DNA of 60,722 nucleotides from an uncultured Anaerolineae bacterium (GTDB lineage: Bacteria; Chloroflexota; Anaerolineae; Anaerolineales; Villigracilaceae): the NCBI GenBank assembly GCA_903822545.1, contig CAIJPN010000012.1, positions 1-60,722 on the forward strand, read 5' to 3'. Shown here piece by piece: positions 47,001-55,186 of the stretch; positions within the stretch are counted from its first letter, which is position 1; every line of letters starts with the position of its first letter. The notes below the pieces were generated by a model that made no database searches, was not told the origin of the DNA, and saw nothing but the letters and a program-made list of their open reading frames with translations. The translations under genes were made by a program, and so were the position numbers.

Positions 47001-47732
47001 TTATATCCCTATCATCCTGCATGCAGAAATTGTAACCTTGCCATCATACAATGCCCGGCCAATGATTACGCCCGCCAGCCCGGCATTTTTCACGCGGATG
47101 ACATCCTCTACGCTGGAGACGCCGCCCGAAGCGACCACTTTCAACCCGGTAGCGGTTTGCAACTCAACAGCCGAATCCACGCTGACGCCGGTTCCCACCC
47201 CGTCGCGGCGCACATCCGTCACGACGCACCATTCCAGCCCCTGGGCGCGGAAGCGCCTACCAGCTTCGAGCATGCTCAGCGGCGTCGATTCCTGCCAGCC
47301 GCGAATCATCACGTTTCCGTCGCGCACGCCAATATCGGCGGCGATGCGGTTTGCCCCATAGCGGGCCATCGCCCAATCCACCAGCGCCGGGTTCTGGATG
47401 GCCGCCGTGCCCAGGAAAACGCGCTCCACACCCATTTCGAGCGGGATTTTGATGGATTCTTCATCTCGAATGCCGCCGCCAAACTCCACCTTCAACCCGA
47501 CCGTGAGTACCGTTTCCAGGGCTTTTAAGTTGGCCGAAGCTTCCTCGCCAAAAGCGCCGCTCAGGTTGATGACGTGAACCCAGGCCGCGCCCTCATCCTT
47601 GAATTTTTGCGCCTGCGCGCGCGGATCGTCTCCGTAGGTGGTCTGGCGCTCGGGGTCGCCCTGGGCCAGGCGGACGATTTTGCCGTTGCGTAAGTCAATT
47701 GCGGGGAATATAGTAAAGGGGGTATCAGTCAT
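47001..47732 (-). CDS. hisA: Phosphoribosylformimino-5-aminoimidazole carboxamide ribotide isomerase
   Basis: 243 aa (beta-alpha)8 barrel, normal length. The N-terminal Asp is in FPAIDLRNGKIVRL, and the second is in VVTDVRRDGVGTG; the phosphate loops VEFGGGIRDEE and VVASGGVSSVEDV are intact. It catalyses the fourth histidine-pathway step. Its ATG overlaps the hisB stop (TGATG). It is the last gene of the local his operon. Confidence 0.96.
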   Translation of the reverse strand: MTDTPFTIFPAIDLRNGKIVRLAQGDPERQTTYGDDPRAQAQKFKDEGAAWVHVINLSGAFGEEASANLKALETVLTVGLKVEFGGGIRDEESIKIPLEMGVERVFLGTAAIQNPALVDWAMARYGANRIAADIGVRDGNVMIRGWQESTPLSMLEAGRRFRAQGLEWCVVTDVRRDGVGTGVSVDSAVELQTATGLKVVASGGVSSVEDVIRVKNAGLAGVIIGRALYDGKVTISACRMIGI

Positions 47733-48322
47733 CAGTTTGTCAGTGTGCCTTTGGTTGAGGGGACGGCCTGTCGTCTACCGTCAACGGTCGTGGCCGCATC
47801 GAGCGCCCGCGCCAGGGCCTTGAAGAGCGCTTCGGCTTTGTGATGGTCATCGCGCCCGTAGAGAACGCGAGCGTGGAGATTGCAGCGCGCCGTAACGGCG
47901 AAACTCTCGAAAAAATGCGGGAACAGGCTGGTGGGGATTTGCCCGACGGGGGCGCTGCCCCACTCGGCATCAATCACGCTGTAGGGCCGCCCCGAAAGGT
48001 CGAGGGCGACGAAGGCCAGGGTTTCGTCCATCGGGGCGTAAAAACTGGCCATGCGGGTGATGCCTTTGCGGTCGCCGAGTGCCTGGTCGAAGGCCGAACC
48101 GAGTACCAGGGCCACATCTTCCACGGTATGATGCACATCAATATGCAGGTCGCCGCTGGCGCGCACGGTCAGGTCGAATAGTCCATGAACAGCGATATGG
48201 GTCAGCATGTGGTCGAGGAATCCAACGCCGGTGGTGATGTCGTGCTGGCCGGAGCCATCCAGGTTGAGTTTGATGCTGATTTGGGTTTCAGATGTTTTAC
48301 GTTCAATTTTGGATGTACGCAT
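47732..48322 (-). CDS. hisB: Imidazoleglycerol-phosphate dehydratase
   Basis: 196 aa monofunctional dehydratase. The Mn-binding His clusters are visible ([29 protein letters not shown]-like and [18 protein letters not shown]-like stretches). There is no fused phosphatase, so histidinol phosphatase is encoded elsewhere. The ribosome site before the ATG is weak. It overlaps hisA by one base. Confidence 0.96.
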
Positions 48323-48339
48323 AATGATCTTTCTGTTGT

Positions 48340-48392
48340 CCAGTTTTCCGGTTTTTTTAGTTAACCGGGCAACTGGTTAACCGGATAACTGG
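48340..48392. repeat. CCAGTT-CCGG inverted repeat at the hisC 3' end
   Basis: CCAGTTTTCCGG (48340-48351) faces CCGGATAACTGG (48381-48392) with one mismatch, and inner GTTAACCGG phrases repeat. It supplies the final codons of hisC (the peptide YPVNQLPG) and the hisC-hisB spacer. Confidence 0.65.
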
Positions 48393-49485
48393 ATAATGCC
48401 GAAAGCAAAGCATCTGTTTGTTCAGGCTTGCCTACGCTGATGCGGATGCAGTCCGTCAGGCCGGGTTTGTTGAAGTAGCGGATGAAGATGCCGTGTTTTT
48501 GGGCCAAATCCGCTTTGAGTTGGGCGGCATCCACTTGCGGGGCGACGCGGCACAGGAGGAAGTTGGCGCTCGAAGGGTAGGGGGAAAGCCAGGGGAGGCG
48601 AGAAAGGCCATCGAAAAGGCGTTCCCTTTCAGCAACGAGGGTTTTGACCGTCCAATCAAGGTAATCGGGGTCGTCGAGGGAGGCAATCGCGGCGACACTG
48701 GCGGCGACGTTGACGTTGTAGGGTTGCTTGGCCTTCCACAGGGTCGGCATCAGCCAGGTGGGGAAGGCTCCGTAGCCGACACGCAGCCCGGCGAGACCGG
48801 CGAGTTTGCTGAAGGTGCGGAGGACGATCAGGTTATTGGTAGTTGGTACTTTGGTAATTTGGGAGTTCGAATATCGAGTATTCGAATATTCGATATTCGA
48901 GAATTCGATGTAGGCTTCGTCTAAAATAATCAGGGCGGGTAAGGTTAATAGTTTTTGCAAGACAGGTGGCGGGATGAGCGATCCGTCGGGATTGTTGGGG
49001 GATGTGAGGAAGATCAGTTTGGGGGAAAACTTTTCAGCAGCCTCCAAAATCCCATTTAAATCCAAAGAAAAATCGGCTTTGCGCGGCACGTTGATAATGC
49101 GGGCGTTGTTCAGGTCGGCGTCGAAGCTATACATGCCGAAGGTGGGCGGGCAATTGATGATGGCGTCGCCGGGGTTGAGTGCCACGCGCATGATCAGGTC
49201 GATCAGTTCGTCTGCGCCCGCGCCGGGGAGCAGGTTTTCGGGTGAGGTGCCGGTGAAGCGGCTGAGGGCGGCGCGCAGGGCGCGGCTCTCGGGATCGGGG
49301 TAGATGTGGCCGTAGGCCAGGGTTGCCAGCGCTTCGCGGGCGCGCGGCGACATGCCGTAGGGGTTCTCGTTGGCGTCGAGTTTGATGATTTGATCAGGGG
49401 AACGACCAACTCGCTGGGAGAGCACTTCAAAAGGCTCGATTGGGGTATAGGGCGGTAAATTGGCGATGTGTGGGGGCAGGTTCAT
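48361..49485 (-). CDS. hisC: Histidinol-phosphate aminotransferase
   Basis: 374 aa PLP enzyme (fold type I). The catalytic Lys is in [25 protein letters not shown] and TSPNNPDGS are family markers. Residues about 193-213 ([16 protein letters not shown] and following) are an insertion encoded by an AT-rich inverted repeat at 48845-48908, replacing the usual short loop before LIVLRTFSK. The last residues come from another repeat. The catalytic core seems intact. AAAGG before the ATG comes from the upstream CCACGGAG repeat. Confidence 0.95.
48845..48908. repeat. AT-rich inverted repeat inside hisC
   Basis: Repeating TTCGAATAT/ATATTCGAA phrases (TCGAATATCGAGTATTCGAA and so on) form an imperfect palindrome. 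GGTAATTTGGGAG on its left resembles the repeat in hisD. The reading frame is kept and there is no stop codon. Confidence 0.7.
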
Positions 49486-49498
49486 AAAAACCTTTCAC

Positions 49499-49542
49499 CA
49501 CGGAGACACGGAGTTTTTAATGCTCTTCTCTGTGTCTCCGTG
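49499..49542. repeat. CACGGAGACACGGAG inverted repeat (copy 2)
   Basis: CACGGAGACACGGAG (49499-49513) pairs with CTCTGTGTCTCCGTG (49528-49542) with one mismatch. It fills the hisD-hisC spacer; the hisD stop lies at its edge, so the last hisD codons may derive from it. It is related to 23368-23429. Confidence 0.75.
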
Positions 49543-49545
49543 TTT

Positions 49546-50895
49546 TTATTTGGTGCGGCAATCTGCTGAGCGGGCGTGGGCTTCGAGGCTTTCGGCGCGG
49601 GCAATGCGGGCGGCGAGCGGGGCGATTTGGGCGGTGGTGGCCGGGTTGAGGGCGATCAGGCTGACGATGTGGACAAAGTCCCAGACGTTGAGCGGGGAGG
49701 CGAAGCGGGCGCTGCCGCCGGTGGGCATGACGTGACTCGGCCCGGCGATGTAGTCGCCCAGGACTTCAAACGAGTGTTCGCCCATGAAGATGCCGCCGGC
49801 GTTGGTGATTTTTTCGCTCAGCGCCCAGGGATCGCGCACGGCCAGGCAGAGATGCTCGGGGGCGTAGGCGTTGTTGAGCGCGGCGGCTTCGTCGAGGTCT
49901 TTGGTGACCACGATTCCGCTCTGGCCGGGCAGGGATTGGGCCAGGATGTCGGCGCGCGGCAGGGTTTCCAGCTGGCGGGCCACTTCGATCTGGACTTTTT
50001 CGGCCAGTTCGCGGGAGGGGGTGAGCAGGATGGCGCTGGCAAGCACGTCATGTTCGGCCTGGGCCAGCAGGTCGGCGGCAACCCAGGCGGGTTTGGCGCT
50101 GTCATCGGCGATGACGACGGTTTCGGTTGGGCCGGCCAGCCCGTCGATGCCGACTGCGCCAAAAACCTGGCGTTTGGCGAGGGTGACGAACAGGTTGCCG
50201 GGGCCGAAGATTTTATCCACAGCGGGAACGGATTCGGTGCCGTAGGCCAGGGCCGCGATGGCCTGAGCGCCACCCATGGCGTAGACTTCGGTCACACCGC
50301 AGAGGGCGCAGGCGGCCAAAATAACGGGTGAAACGATTTGGTAATTCGATAATTCGTAATTTGTAATTCGTTGGGGAGGGGTGACGATGACAATATCTTT
50401 GACGCCCGCCACCTGGGCCGGGATGGCCGACATCAACACGGAGGAGGGCAGCGGGGCGGTGCCGCCGGGGACGTACAGGCCGACGCGGGCGTGCGGGCGG
50501 ATGAACTGGCCGAGGGTGCCACCGAGGTCATTGGTGAACCAGCTCGTCAGTGGCTGTCGGCGGTAAAACTCGCGGATGCGGGTCGCGGCCACTTCGAGGG
50601 CCTCGCGCGTCTGAGGGGCGAGGGCCGCCAGGGCGGCGGTTAAGGCTTCGGCGGGGACGCGAATTGGGGCGTCGGCGGGGAAACCATCCAGTTTGGCGCT
50701 CCACTCCCGCAGGGCCACATCGCCCCGGGAGCGGACATCGCGCAGGATACGGCGAACAGCTTCCTCGGGAGAGATCCGCTCACCAAAGGTGGCTTCAATG
50801 CGGTCGAGGACAACCGGCGGAACAGCGGTTTCGTCGGGGGGGATACGTTTCAAAATAGATTTTTTTGCAGTTTCGACATCGTAAATTTTGATCAT
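49546..50895 (-). CDS. hisD: Histidinol dehydrogenase
   Basis: 449 aa zinc enzyme that oxidises histidinol to histidine with two NAD. Family stretches are [47 protein letters not shown] and AEHDVLA, with the catalytic Glu-His in YAPEHL and the His in [11 protein letters not shown]. Residues about 174-187 ([13 protein letters not shown]) are an insertion encoded by an AT-rich repeat at 50335-50372. AAGGA precedes the ATG. It is the second gene of the operon. Confidence 0.96.
50335..50372. repeat. AT-rich repeat inside hisD
   Basis: Tandem-like TAATTCG phrases (GGTAATTCGATAATTCGTAA and onward) occur in an otherwise GC-rich gene. It reads in frame on the minus strand as a NYEL-type peptide. Base composition differs sharply from the flanks. 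Confidence 0.65.
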
Positions 50896-50909: not shown

Positions 50910-50961
50910 GTAGGGGCGAGGTTCTCTCGCCCCGGCAAGGGCGGGGTTTCCCCGCCCCTAC
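50910..50961. repeat. Three-arm palindrome between hisG and hisD
   Basis: GTAGGGGCG/CGCCCCTAC ends (50910-50918/50953-50961) enclose GGGGCGAG/CTCGCCCC (50913-50920/50926-50933) and GGGCGGGG/CCCCGCCC (50939-50946/50950-50957). The hisG stop codon (50958-50960) lies inside the right end. It is the same family as the tandem array at 51966-52112. Confidence 0.75.
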
Positions 50962-51953
50962 GATAACGCGGTTAACATCGCCTTGTATCTTGGCGGCTCT
51001 TCTTCGAAGATATATGTCACGGGTGCAACCACCACGCCGCTGCCGCCAATGGCGCGCAATTCGTTGATGGCGGCAAAAAGCTCGTCGCGATGGACGACAA
51101 TATGCAGGGCATACCAGTTCGGGTCGCCATCTTTGCGGATGATGTTGCTCAGGGTGGGGCCGTTCAGCCCGCCGATGGTTTTCTGCGAAAAGACGCGCGC
51201 GGCGATGGCGTCGGGGCTTTCGCCGCGCATGTTGGCGAAAATTGAGACGTTATTCTGGGCGCGCTGGTAGGCTTCGATCAGCTCTAAAAGCTGGCGGGCA
51301 ATTGCCAGCACGGCGGGATTCTCTTTGAGCGCGGCTTTGTTGGCGATTAAAACCGCCTGGGATGAGAGAATTTGTCCATCGGTGAGCAGTTTCAGGCGGT
51401 TGTCGCGCAGGGTCTGGCCGGAGGAGACCAGGTCGGTGATCAGGTCGGCGTAACCGATGGTGGGGGCAATTTCGAGGGTGCCTTCCGCTTCGATGAAAGT
51501 CACCTCGCTGAGACCGTGTTCCGCGAAAAAGGGCCGGGCGGCGTTGGGGAATTTGGTCGCCACCCGCAGGGGACGCCCGATTTCGGCCTGCATCTGTTTC
51601 AGGTCGCTCATCTGGCTGACGGCGCTCCACGCTTCGGGGACGATCACGTTCAGGGAGCAGGCGCCAAACCCCAGGGCGGTATGGATGGGCAGAATCGCCC
51701 CGTTGGGGCCGCCGTGTTCGGTCAGCACATCCAGCCCGGTGATGCCAAAATCCACCGAACCATTGCGGACGGAAATCACGATGTCGGTGGGACGCTGGAA
51801 GAGCACGCTGACCCCTGGCAGGGACGGGATGCTGGCCTCGTATTGGCGCGGGTTGGGCTTGTAGATGTTAAAGCCGCAGGCAGTGAGGAAGTTGATGGCG
51901 TCTTCGGATAGACGGCCTTTGGAGGGGAGGGAGAGACGGATGGGGCGCTGCAT
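50958..51953 (-). CDS. hisG: ATP phosphoribosyltransferase, long form
   Basis: 331 aa, so the long HisG type with a C-terminal ACT-like regulatory domain (about 235-331) that binds histidine. It commits PRPP and ATP to histidine synthesis. [29 protein letters not shown] and [20 protein letters not shown] (split) are the substrate motifs. No separate HisZ is needed. It is the first structural gene after the predicted attenuator. The ribosome site (AAGAGA) is weak, and the stop lies in a repeat. Confidence 0.96.
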
Positions 51954-51965
51954 AGTTCTCTTTCT

Positions 51966-52112
51966 GTAGGGGCGAGGTTCTCTCGCCCCGCTTGGGCGGG
52001 GTTCTCTCGCCCCGCTTGGGCGGGGTTCTCTCGCCCCGCTTGGGCGGGGTTCTCTCGCCCCGCTTGGGCAAGGTTCTCTTGCCCCGCTTGGGCGGGGAAA
52101 CCCCGCCCCAAC
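51966..52112. repeat. Tandem 24-bp palindromic repeats upstream of hisG
   Basis: A first variant (51966-51990) is followed by three identical 24-bp units (51991-52014, 52015-52038, 52039-52062), then a variant unit (52063-52086) and a GGCGGGG-AAA-CCCCGCC end (52087-52112). Each unit can form a hairpin. In the variant GCAAG faces CTTGC where the first copy has GCGAG facing CTCGC, so the pairing is kept. The array lies between the attenuator and hisG in the untranslated leader. Confidence 0.85.
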
Positions 52113-52124
52113 GAGAATAAAACA

Positions 52125-52152
52125 AAGCCCCCAGCCAGATGACCGGGGGCTT
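52125..52152 (-). terminator. Attenuator terminator of the his operon
   Basis: Stem AAGCCCCC/GGGGGCTT (52152-52145/52132-52125 on the minus strand) with a 12-base loop, followed by TGTTTTATT. It lies between the leader ORF and hisG. Its 5' part (CCGGTC region, 52146-52141) is complementary to GACCGG of the leader ORF (52196-52191), so the two folds exclude each other. Confidence 0.8.
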
Positions 52153-52162
52153 GAGATAAAAA

Positions 52163-52185
52163 AGGTTAGGTAATGAAACTAACCT
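52163..52185 (-). promoter_or_regulatory. Leader hairpin over the hisL stop codon
   Basis: AGGTTAG/CTAACCT (52185-52179/52169-52163 on the minus strand) is a 7-bp stem that includes the TAG stop of the leader ORF and is followed by five to six Ts. It could act as a pause site or a first, weak terminator. Confidence 0.55.
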
Positions 52186-52247
52186 GCGCTCCGGTCGGGC
52201 AGGGGGCAAGTGTGATGATTGTGATGCAGGGCAAAGATCAGTTTCAT
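52179..52247 (-). CDS. hisL: his operon leader peptide
   Basis: 22 aa. Residues 8-12 are His-His-Asn-His-His (codons 52226-52212), an extreme His content for a random ORF. The ATG at 52247 is about 10 bases after a -10 box, so the mRNA has almost no 5' leader and no Shine-Dalgarno sequence. The stop TAG is at 52181-52179. When histidyl-tRNA is scarce a ribosome stalled at codons 8-12 would leave the GACCGG of codons 18-19 free to pair with the terminator. When it is plentiful the ribosome would cover it. The peptide is likely only a regulatory reading frame. Confidence 0.75.
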   Translation of the reverse strand: MKLIFALHHNHHTCPLPDRSAG

Positions 52248-52257
52248 AGTGGCGGTG

Positions 52258-52286
52258 ATTTTACTGGCTGGGGGAGATTTCGTCAA
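52258..52286 (-). promoter_or_regulatory. his operon promoter
   Basis: TTGACG (52286-52281), exactly 17 bp, then TAAAAT (52263-52258) on the minus strand. The -35 starts three bases after the ppk stop. The predicted start lies a few bases upstream of the hisL ATG. Confidence 0.8.
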
Positions 52287-54378: not shown

Positions 54379-54443
54379 CCCTCACCCCAACCCCTCTCCC
54401 GGCGGGAGAGGGGCCCCCTGTGGGGGAGGGCGGAGGGTGAGGG
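54379..54443. repeat. Three-arm palindromic element in the ppk leader
   Basis: CCCTCACCC/GGGTGAGGG ends (54379-54387/54435-54443) enclose CCCCTCTCCC/GGGAGAGGGG (54391-54400/54404-54413) and a CCCCC/GGGGG hairpin right after it. It belongs to the same family as 29-105 and 42157-42249. It would be transcribed in the ppk 5' leader. Confidence 0.8.
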
Positions 54444-54454
54444 TAATATCGCCG

Positions 54455-54460
54455 ATTATA
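54455..54460 (-). promoter_or_regulatory. ppk -10 box
   Basis: A perfect TATAAT on the minus strand, about 90 bases upstream of the ppk ATG and beyond the repeat. The -35 region is weak. Confidence 0.5.
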
Positions 54461-54489
54461 GGGCAAAAACCGGCTGCGCGGGTGAGTTT

Positions 54490-54498
54490 TGATATACT
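54490..54498 (+). promoter_or_regulatory. Extended -10 promoter of the ygjP-like gene
   Basis: TGATATACT (extended -10 TG plus TATACT, 54493-54498), with seven bases to the ATG at 54506. No Shine-Dalgarno sequence is present, so a leaderless mRNA is predicted. It is divergent from the ppk promoter. Confidence 0.6.
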
Positions 54499-54505
54499 TT
54501 GGCGC

Positions 54506-55186
54506 ATGTCCATCCCCAATGTTGATGAAATTATCCGCACGCGGCGCAAGACGATTGCCATTATCGTGCAGCGCGGTGGCAAGGTGGTGGTGCGCGCGCC
54601 GGTACGGGCAACGGAAGTGAGCATCCGCCGATTTGTTGAATCCAAAAGCGGGTGGATTGCCGAGAAGAAGGCTCAGGCGGCCAAAATGCCGCTGGTAACG
54701 GGGAAAAGTTTCCAGGGCGGTGAGATGTTCTTGCTGCTCGGGAAGGAGTATCCGCTCAGGCTGGTGGAAAGCCAGAAAACCGCGCTCACTTTCCAGGATG
54801 GATTTTTCCTGAGAAAAAATACCGCGCTGAAAGCGAAATCCGCTTTTGAGAAGTGGTACAAAACCCGGGCGCTGGAAATCCTGACCGAGCGGGTGGATTT
54901 CTTCGCCCGCAAGTTTGGCCTGCGCTACGAGAAAATCCGCATCAGCTCGGCGCGGACGCGCTGGGGCTCGTGCAGCGCGCGCGGGACGTTGAGCTTTACC
55001 TGGCGGTTGGTGATGGCCCCGCTGGATGTGGTTGATTATGTAGTCATCCACGAACTGGCACATTTGCGCGTGCGCAATCATTCGGCGGTTTTTTGGGCCG
55101 AGGTGGCGCGGATGATGCCGGATTTTAAGCCACGCCTGGGCTGGCTGCGCAAAAACGGGCAATTCCTGACGCTGGATGGTGAGTGA
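54506..55186 (+). CDS. YgjP-like (DUF45/M48-type) metallopeptidase
   Basis: 226 aa. The zinc motif is VIHELAHLRVRNHS (HELAH with a further His), preceded by RISSARTRWGSCSARGTLSF, both diagnostic of the YgjP/DUF45 metal-dependent hydrolases. No signal peptide is seen, so it is cytoplasmic. The ATG at 54506 is chosen over a longer frame that runs through the repeat and promoter. Its stop overlaps the next ATG (TGATG). Confidence 0.92.
   Translation: MSIPNVDEIIRTRRKTIAIIVQRGGKVVVRAPVRATEVSIRRFVESKSGWIAEKKAQAAKMPLVTGKSFQGGEMFLLLGKEYPLRLVESQKTALTFQDGFFLRKNTALKAKSAFEKWYKTRALEILTERVDFFARKFGLRYEKIRISSARTRWGSCSARGTLSFTWRLVMAPLDVVDYVVIHELAHLRVRNHSAVFWAEVARMMPDFKPRLGWLRKNGQFLTLDGE

Follow-up and report, generated by a model that had tools for sequence, protein, structure and literature searches.

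The histidine leader of enterobacteria, hisL, is led by a Shine–Dalgarno sequence. In the passages on hisL cited here (PMC3896937), it combines a run of seven consecutive His codons in a short leader ORF, a terminator before the his genes, and mutually exclusive pairings; the locus described below has the same three elements, but its His run, like that of its relatives, has at most six consecutive codons. In the Firmicutes, comparative genomics has predicted histidine attenuators in three lineages, and the Rfam family RF00514 has no match in the phylum (PMC9413887). His-rich leader ORFs have also been described there at hisS/hisZ, by authors who knew of demonstrated leader peptide systems in Proteobacteria and Actinobacteria only and who added the Firmicutes (PMC2965389). 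The predicted attenuators likewise consist of a His-rich leader ORF with a terminator and an antiterminator, but the Firmicutes are another phylum, and leaderless starts are not described in the passages cited from either paper. The Chloroflexi are named in the former, as far as its cited passages go, only in a reference title, and "Chloroflex-" does not occur in the text of the latter. As for the Actinobacteria, Corynebacterium glutamicum AS019 is stated, in the passages cited, to be without a His leader ORF before hisD (PMC3896937), and His leader peptides in this phylum are the subject of a conference paper of 2015 (an entry in the reference list of PMC4833913).

Leaderless leader peptides form a second group of relevant systems. 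In C. glutamicum, the leader of ilvBNC is leaderless, and its first hairpin blocks leaderless initiation while sparing the terminator (PMC11857589, passages cited); that system concerns branched-chain amino acids in the Actinobacteria and has been tested by mutation, whereas the one described here concerns histidine and is known from sequence. In Streptomyces lividans, leader ORFs likewise lie at the 5' end of the mRNA, with leaderless leader peptides for Leu, Trp, Ile/Val, Met, and Thr and, among the eight leaders listed in the passages cited, none for His (PMC8079986). The polycysteine sORFs of mycobacteria (Canestrari 2020, via the cited passages of PMC9031893 and PMC13236596) are also located at the 5' end, but for Cys; in both cases, the ORF is enriched in its amino acid or senses it. 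Finally, the trpL mRNA of Sinorhizobium meliloti begins with the leader ATG, there for Trp, and its peptide and RNA also act in trans (PMC7298713, passages cited). Separately, both ribosome-mediated attenuation by histidine and leaderless leader peptides have precedents. The present case would add a histidine attenuator whose leader is predicted to be leaderless, from a phylum for which our search turned up none; indeed, no report of a Chloroflexota his leader was found in the literature covered, which took in few subscription papers.

The window, that is, the whole stretch of 60,722 nucleotides that was analysed, carries on its minus strand the cluster hisGDCBA, which is preceded by the features collected in Table 1. 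In all likelihood, these features make up an attenuator of transcription that works through the ribosome, responds to charged His-tRNA, and has a leaderless or near-leaderless leader mRNA; its His-rich ORF and two competing hairpins very probably switch the his genes on when histidine is short. The locus has a short ORF rich in His codons (HHNHH) before hisGDCBA, an intrinsic terminator between this ORF and the first gene, and a conserved antiterminator that is exclusive with the terminator. The initial annotation of this DNA had described the promoter, the 22-codon ORF with four His codons within five (codons 8, 9, 11, and 12), a hairpin over the stop codon, a GC-rich terminator with its T-run, and the complementarity between GACCGG and the CCGGTC of the terminator 5' arm, and all of these were found where it had placed them. 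This description can be extended by a predicted near-leaderless start and by two further pairings, one joining the leader start to the leader end and the other joining GCCCCCUGCC to the terminator 3' arm.

Table 1. Features of the his leader and of the genes that follow it (positions in the window).
Feature	Positions	Strand	Basis
Sigma-70-type promoter, TTGACG-17-TAAAAT	52258..52286	minus	Promoter scan
Predicted 4-nt 5' UTR (CACU), near-leaderless mRNA, without Shine–Dalgarno sequence	52248..52251	minus	Prediction from the -10 position
Leader ORF, 22 codons, MKLIFALHHNHHTCPLPDRSAG, stop TAG	52179..52247	minus	His ORF conserved upstream of hisG
Putative sensing codons 8-12, His-His-Asn-His-His	52212..52226	minus	Sequence and stall model
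Segment A (start codon through codon 6), partner of B	52231..52247	minus	A:B permutation test
Predicted partner of terminator 3' arm during His stall, GCCCCCTGCC	52198..52207	minus	Window fold and AT2:T3 test
Antiterminator core GACCGG, codons 18-19	52191..52196	minus	Covariation with terminator 5' arm
Segment B, leader end and stop codon, GCAGGTTAGTTTCAT	52173..52187	minus	Pairing tests and window fold
Segment C (CTAACCT), partner of AGGTTAG at the stop codon	52163..52169	minus	Close relatives only
Terminator 5' arm, contains CCGGTC (52146-52141)	52141..52152	minus	Terminator scan
Terminator 3' arm, followed by tail TGTTTTATTC (52124-52115)	52125..52136	minus	Terminator scan
hisG, long form, first gene of the cluster	50958..51953	minus	TIGR00070 and TIGR03455
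hisD, hisC, hisB, hisA	47001..50895	minus	NCBIfam

The promoter is the sole promoter-like site found by the scan between 51900 and 52500 (shuffled sequences average 0.3). Transcription is predicted to start at the seventh base past the -10 hexamer, and the leader start codon (52247) lies only 10 nt downstream of this hexamer. The terminator (52152-52125), a 12-bp stem of the form AAGCCCCCGGTC-ATCT-GGCTGGGGGCTT with a T-rich tail, is likewise the only one found by the scan in this interval, which is unremarkable because shuffles give 0.9 on average. The stop-codon hairpin consists of AGGTTAG (52185-52179) paired with CTAACCT (52169-52163). The gene behind the terminator is hisG, as the initial annotation had it, with 172.1 bits for TIGR00070 (cut-off 75.75) and 58.7 bits for TIGR03455 (cut-off 40.05); the score of hisA, 227.1, is marginally below the NCBIfam cut-off of 228.95. 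The gap between terminator and hisG contains a tandem array (51970-52097) of 5.3 copies of a 24-bp GC-rich unit. This unit recurs as a partial copy between hisG and hisD (50910-50958) and, at another place in the genome, as a 22-bp match. Because of this array, the terminator-to-hisG spacing of 169 nt in the window exceeds the 17-145 nt measured for the 60 other leaders.

The conservation of the leader was assessed upstream of hisG. HisG matches were obtained in 38 of 61 genomes of the relatives sample, 136 of 199 of the class, and 151 of 251 of the phylum, and at 18 loci of named genomes. The class and phylum hits were sampled in part, most short-form or weak class hits and some phylum hits being left out. 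The 165 upstream regions that resulted comprise 40 from relatives and named genomes, 45 from class and phylum loci, and 80 fetched by place; duplicates of other loci (L032-L036 and L044), loci with no upstream sequence (L037 and L048), and one at a contig edge (L052) were dropped. A His ORF was defined by at least three His in five codons, a start codon upstream, and a stop 55-300 nt before hisG. Such an ORF was present in 64 of the 165 regions, whereas control scans of the same regions yielded three (reverse complement) and two (reversed sequence); 62 were kept after two, L066 and L170, were dropped as likely chance. The leaders contain 3-7 His codons in all, and a terminator lies 19-58 nt past the leader stop in 61 of the 62.

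In the relatives sample, the leader was found in 36 of the 37 genomes examined, the window's own counted and one further genome, with its HisG match at a contig edge (G043), excluded; the single exception is G058 (L101). Two loci counted as negative, L050 and L056, have by eye weaker two-His leaders with terminator-like hairpins. The nearest named relatives, as judged by HisG, are MAGs of Anaerolineales and Anaerolineae. Further away, the leader is mostly lacking next to hisG: an Anaerolineae family (L060-L067, three of the eight also viewed directly), with a HisG about 56% identical, has no His leader ORF directly before hisG, and the 55 loci from other Chloroflexota classes (L079, L081, L083-L095, and L136-L175) gave a sole positive, the dropped L170. 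Since hisG need not be the first gene in these distant groups, the absence holds only for this place.

A covariance model, R1, built from 14 leaders matched 51 of the 151 genomes of the order at E 0.01. Among the matches listed, 30 loci were considered, 21 of them with hisG nearby, and a His ORF is visible in 20 of these 21 (not in L190). The 14 strongest matches include 13 with hisG alongside, two of which are members of the model. Nine of the listed loci are without hisG: L198 is among the 14 strongest, and the other eight, with E-values of 1.6e-4 or weaker, are likely to be chance matches, the weaker matches being increasingly so.

That the leader mRNA is leaderless or nearly so is predicted from the spacing of the -10 box and from the scarcity of Shine–Dalgarno-like sites. 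The distance from the -10 box to the start codon is 6-11 nt in 56 of 61 leaders (the contig of L030 was too short for the scan) and exactly 10 nt in 31, and 55 leaders have a predicted 5' UTR of 0-5 nt. The best promoter scores average 8.51 before the 61 leaders, as against 5.93 in 56 control stretches further upstream. A Shine–Dalgarno-like energy of -4 or lower was found at 3% of 61 leader starts versus 85% of 61 hisG starts, the latter figure being somewhat flattering because it uses the best of the candidate starts. The automatic scan gave a different spacing for L012, L027, L038, L039, and L054, the first of which has by eye an ATG 9 nt downstream. A TA-like signal some 10-12 bp before the start is described as a mark of leaderless genes, which average 4.7% of genes in the 4 of 12 listed Chloroflexi genomes (passages cited from PMC3160421). 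Another mechanism could be attenuation with a Shine–Dalgarno-led leader and a transcription start further upstream, as in the enterobacterial hisL. In favour of such a start, the leaderless reading is a prediction from promoter position; however, both the -10 spacing and the rarity of Shine–Dalgarno-like sites at the leader starts argue against it, and we consider it improbable.

The pairings that the near-leaderless attenuator would use were examined by comparing the duplex energy of each leader's own segments with that of segments swapped between species (5000 permutations); these controls account for phylogeny only via thinning, and L053, for which no terminator was found, was left out. The A:B duplex has a mean of -18.97 kcal/mol, compared with -14.89 when permuted (z -9.2, 61 leaders). 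With A taken from the predicted transcription start, the values are -19.06 and -14.25 kcal/mol (z -10.6, 0/5000, 55 leaders), and after thinning to 18 dissimilar leaders the pairing gives z -6.5 (0/5000). The antiterminator pairing, between the leader 3' part and the terminator 5' arm, has -13.46 versus -10.99 kcal/mol (z -7.7, 0/5000, 61 leaders), and z -3.0 (19/5000) in 18 dissimilar leaders. For comparison, the two terminator arms give z -20.7 and a negative control, A with the terminator 5' arm, z 0.1 (61 leaders each). In the same test, the pairing between leader and terminator 3' arm (AT2:T3) gives a fainter signal that still holds from species to species (z -3.7 over 50 leaders; z -2.2, 101/5000, in 14 after thinning). 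The stop-codon hairpin, B:C, was rejected as a general element (z 0.6 in 61 leaders; its control, A:C, gave z -1.9, 144/5000) and is kept for the close relatives only, where 83.7% of the cells are paired in 14 sequences.

Covariation was sought in alignments of 14 and 35 leaders, the members of which were hand-picked as alignable. Among the 14 close sequences, the helices are maintained but covary little: A:B has one double-change pair and a covariation score reached by 30 of 500 shuffles, and for the GACCGG helix the score was reached by 96 of 500. Consequently, the wide sets became the main tests. In the 35-leader alignment, the six-pair GACCGG:CCGGTC helix is paired in 92.4% of cells, with 15 double-change cells versus 3.8 in shuffles (0/500) and 11 further pair types versus 7.5 (1/500); double changes occur in 4 pairs versus 2.5, which is not exceptional (81 of 500 shuffles reach this count). 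The comparison with relatives that the initial annotation had proposed as a check thus reveals both the conserved His runs and the compensatory changes that it looked for. L004 and L008 carry G-C in place of a U-A pair of A:B; this double change abolishes the TAG stop and gives a longer peptide, so that the RNA pairing is kept at the expense of the peptide end. On this sequence evidence, two alternative pairings are held by matched changes, one between leader start and leader end, the other between leader 3' part and terminator 5' arm. The start codon itself is within A:B in 26 of 55 leaders, and hiding of the AUG is therefore not general.

These pairings suggest the following mechanism. RNA polymerase would start about 4 nt upstream of the leader AUG. 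When His-tRNA is ample, the ribosome would reach the stop codon and mask GACCGG and the leader end, whereupon the terminator would form before hisG. When His-tRNA is scarce, the ribosome would stall in the His run (at codons 8-10 in the model) with A masked, and the freed downstream leader would pair with both terminator arms, GACCGG with CCGGUC and GCCCCCUGCC with GGCUGGGGGC; the terminator would then be absent and hisGDCBA transcribed. A third state is proposed tentatively for the untranslated leader, in which A:B might form, including the start codon in the case of the window, and leave the terminator intact, so that transcription would be off by default.

When the window's RNA is folded computationally from its predicted start, the full untranslated form contains A:B and the terminator (-41.6 kcal/mol), with the start codon within A:B. 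For a ribosome stalled at His9, with an assumed footprint of 14 nt past the first P-site base, the optimum (-37.4) pairs GACCGG with CCGGUC and GCCCCCUGCC with the terminator 3' arm; once the ribosome is at the stop codon, the competing upstream structure is insubstantial (-0.6). At equilibrium, the terminator has a probability of 0.004-0.009 while the ribosome is at one of codons 2-10, of 0.95-0.97 when it is at one of codons 11-23, and of 0.75 in the untranslated RNA. The initial annotation had the ribosome stalling at codons 8-12; in the model, codons 8-10 bear this out, since a stall there prevents the terminator, whereas codons 11 and 12, two of the four His codons, lie beyond the switch between codons 10 and 11 and no longer do so. 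Over the 61 leaders, the probability of the terminator averages 0.64 for the His stall, 0.97 for a ribosome at the stop, and 0.89 without translation; the value at His is lower than that at the stop in 56 and lower than that of the untranslated RNA in 46, and it falls below 0.5 in only 23.

A kinetic version of the model considers the probability that the terminator 5' arm is sequestered before the 3' arm is made. The means for the 61 leaders are 0.75 at the His stall, 0.34 at the stop, and 0.59 untranslated, and the corresponding values for the window are 0.74, 0.34, and 0.69. Dinucleotide shuffling of the stretch between ribosome and terminator lowers the sequestration at the His stall from 0.75 to 0.52, the real value being higher in 58 of 61 leaders; taken by itself, the window is equalled in this respect by 10% of its shuffles. 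The third state is conserved as a pairing and only partly borne out by folding, and may be retained tentatively. Indeed, in the window, the untranslated RNA sequesters the 5' arm nearly as much as the His stall, which argues against this state, and when the untranslated RNA ends before the terminator 3' arm, its best fold is the antiterminator rather than A:B. Since folding speaks against the third state, our confidence in the attenuator as the best explanation is slightly lowered.

Alternatively, the hairpin might do no more than terminate transcription, for instance that of the polyphosphate kinase gene upstream, the His ORF being a chance frame. This gene is on the same strand and ends just before the leader promoter, and a terminator would be sensible there; however, the promoter sits between the gene and the hairpin, and the His ORF, the promoter spacing, and the pairings recur in relatives far above the controls, which makes this explanation very unlikely. 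Control of hisG by a T-box or another tRNA- or metabolite-binding riboswitch, with an incidental ORF, is hardly credible: the genome does have eight T-box matches, seven of them before pheS, trpE, ileS, a trpB-like gene, thrS, valS, and leuS, but none of the eight is at the his operon, no Rfam family, T-box RF00230 included, reaches its gathering threshold anywhere in the window, and the stretch from promoter to terminator is mostly filled by the leader ORF and its pairings.

The genes behind the seven T-boxes were named from their best NCBIfam matches, the stretches of ileS, valS, and leuS being cut by the locus end, with scores under the cut-offs; the eighth match is unassigned. Four of the eight matches (L179-L186, on G000 contigs 100, 41, 22, 181, 213, 24, 135, and 114) are over the gathering score. 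A trp leader peptide was also sought and rejected: no ORF of 6-45 codons with at least two Trp lies in the 500 nt before trpE, where there is a T-box match. The gene ilvB is directly behind another gene and is uninformative about leaders. As for the Rfam model of the histidine leader (RF00514 His_leader), its match in the window, with 19.3 bits and E 0.85 against a gathering score of 49, was one of 30 mostly chance matches in 501 bases (E up to 10) and was rejected; in 10 relatives scanned, this model has no match at E 0.01.

The attenuator proposed here would place translation-coupled attenuation in the Chloroflexota, the passages cited above covering Proteobacteria, Actinobacteria, and some Firmicutes, and would therefore imply a coupling of transcription and translation in this phylum. 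It would also offer, for histidine, a leaderless leader peptide that is conserved and open to experimental test. Because T-box matches precede trpE and several aminoacyl-tRNA synthetase genes, the genome offers a natural comparison of two sensors of tRNA charging. Moreover, an RNA family could be built directly from the 61 leaders. The evidence seems evenly balanced as to whether these leaders represent a distinct and broadly conserved Anaerolineae lineage of leaderless histidine attenuators, unmatched by the proteobacterial model, in which the leader 5' end (with the start codon in about half of cases) would be sequestered by folding if no ribosome loaded promptly, and the leader 3' part would mimic the terminator and capture both of its arms at the His stall.

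Two other observations were made in the window. On the plus strand, a 249-codon ORF (54437-55186) with an HELAH motif resembles by eye a metal-dependent hydrolase; it has no NCBIfam match at E 0.001. Within hisC, a short tandem repeat, TTCGAATA / TTCGAATATTCGATA (48866-48909), resembles by eye the intergenic repeats past the terminators of L003 and L005.
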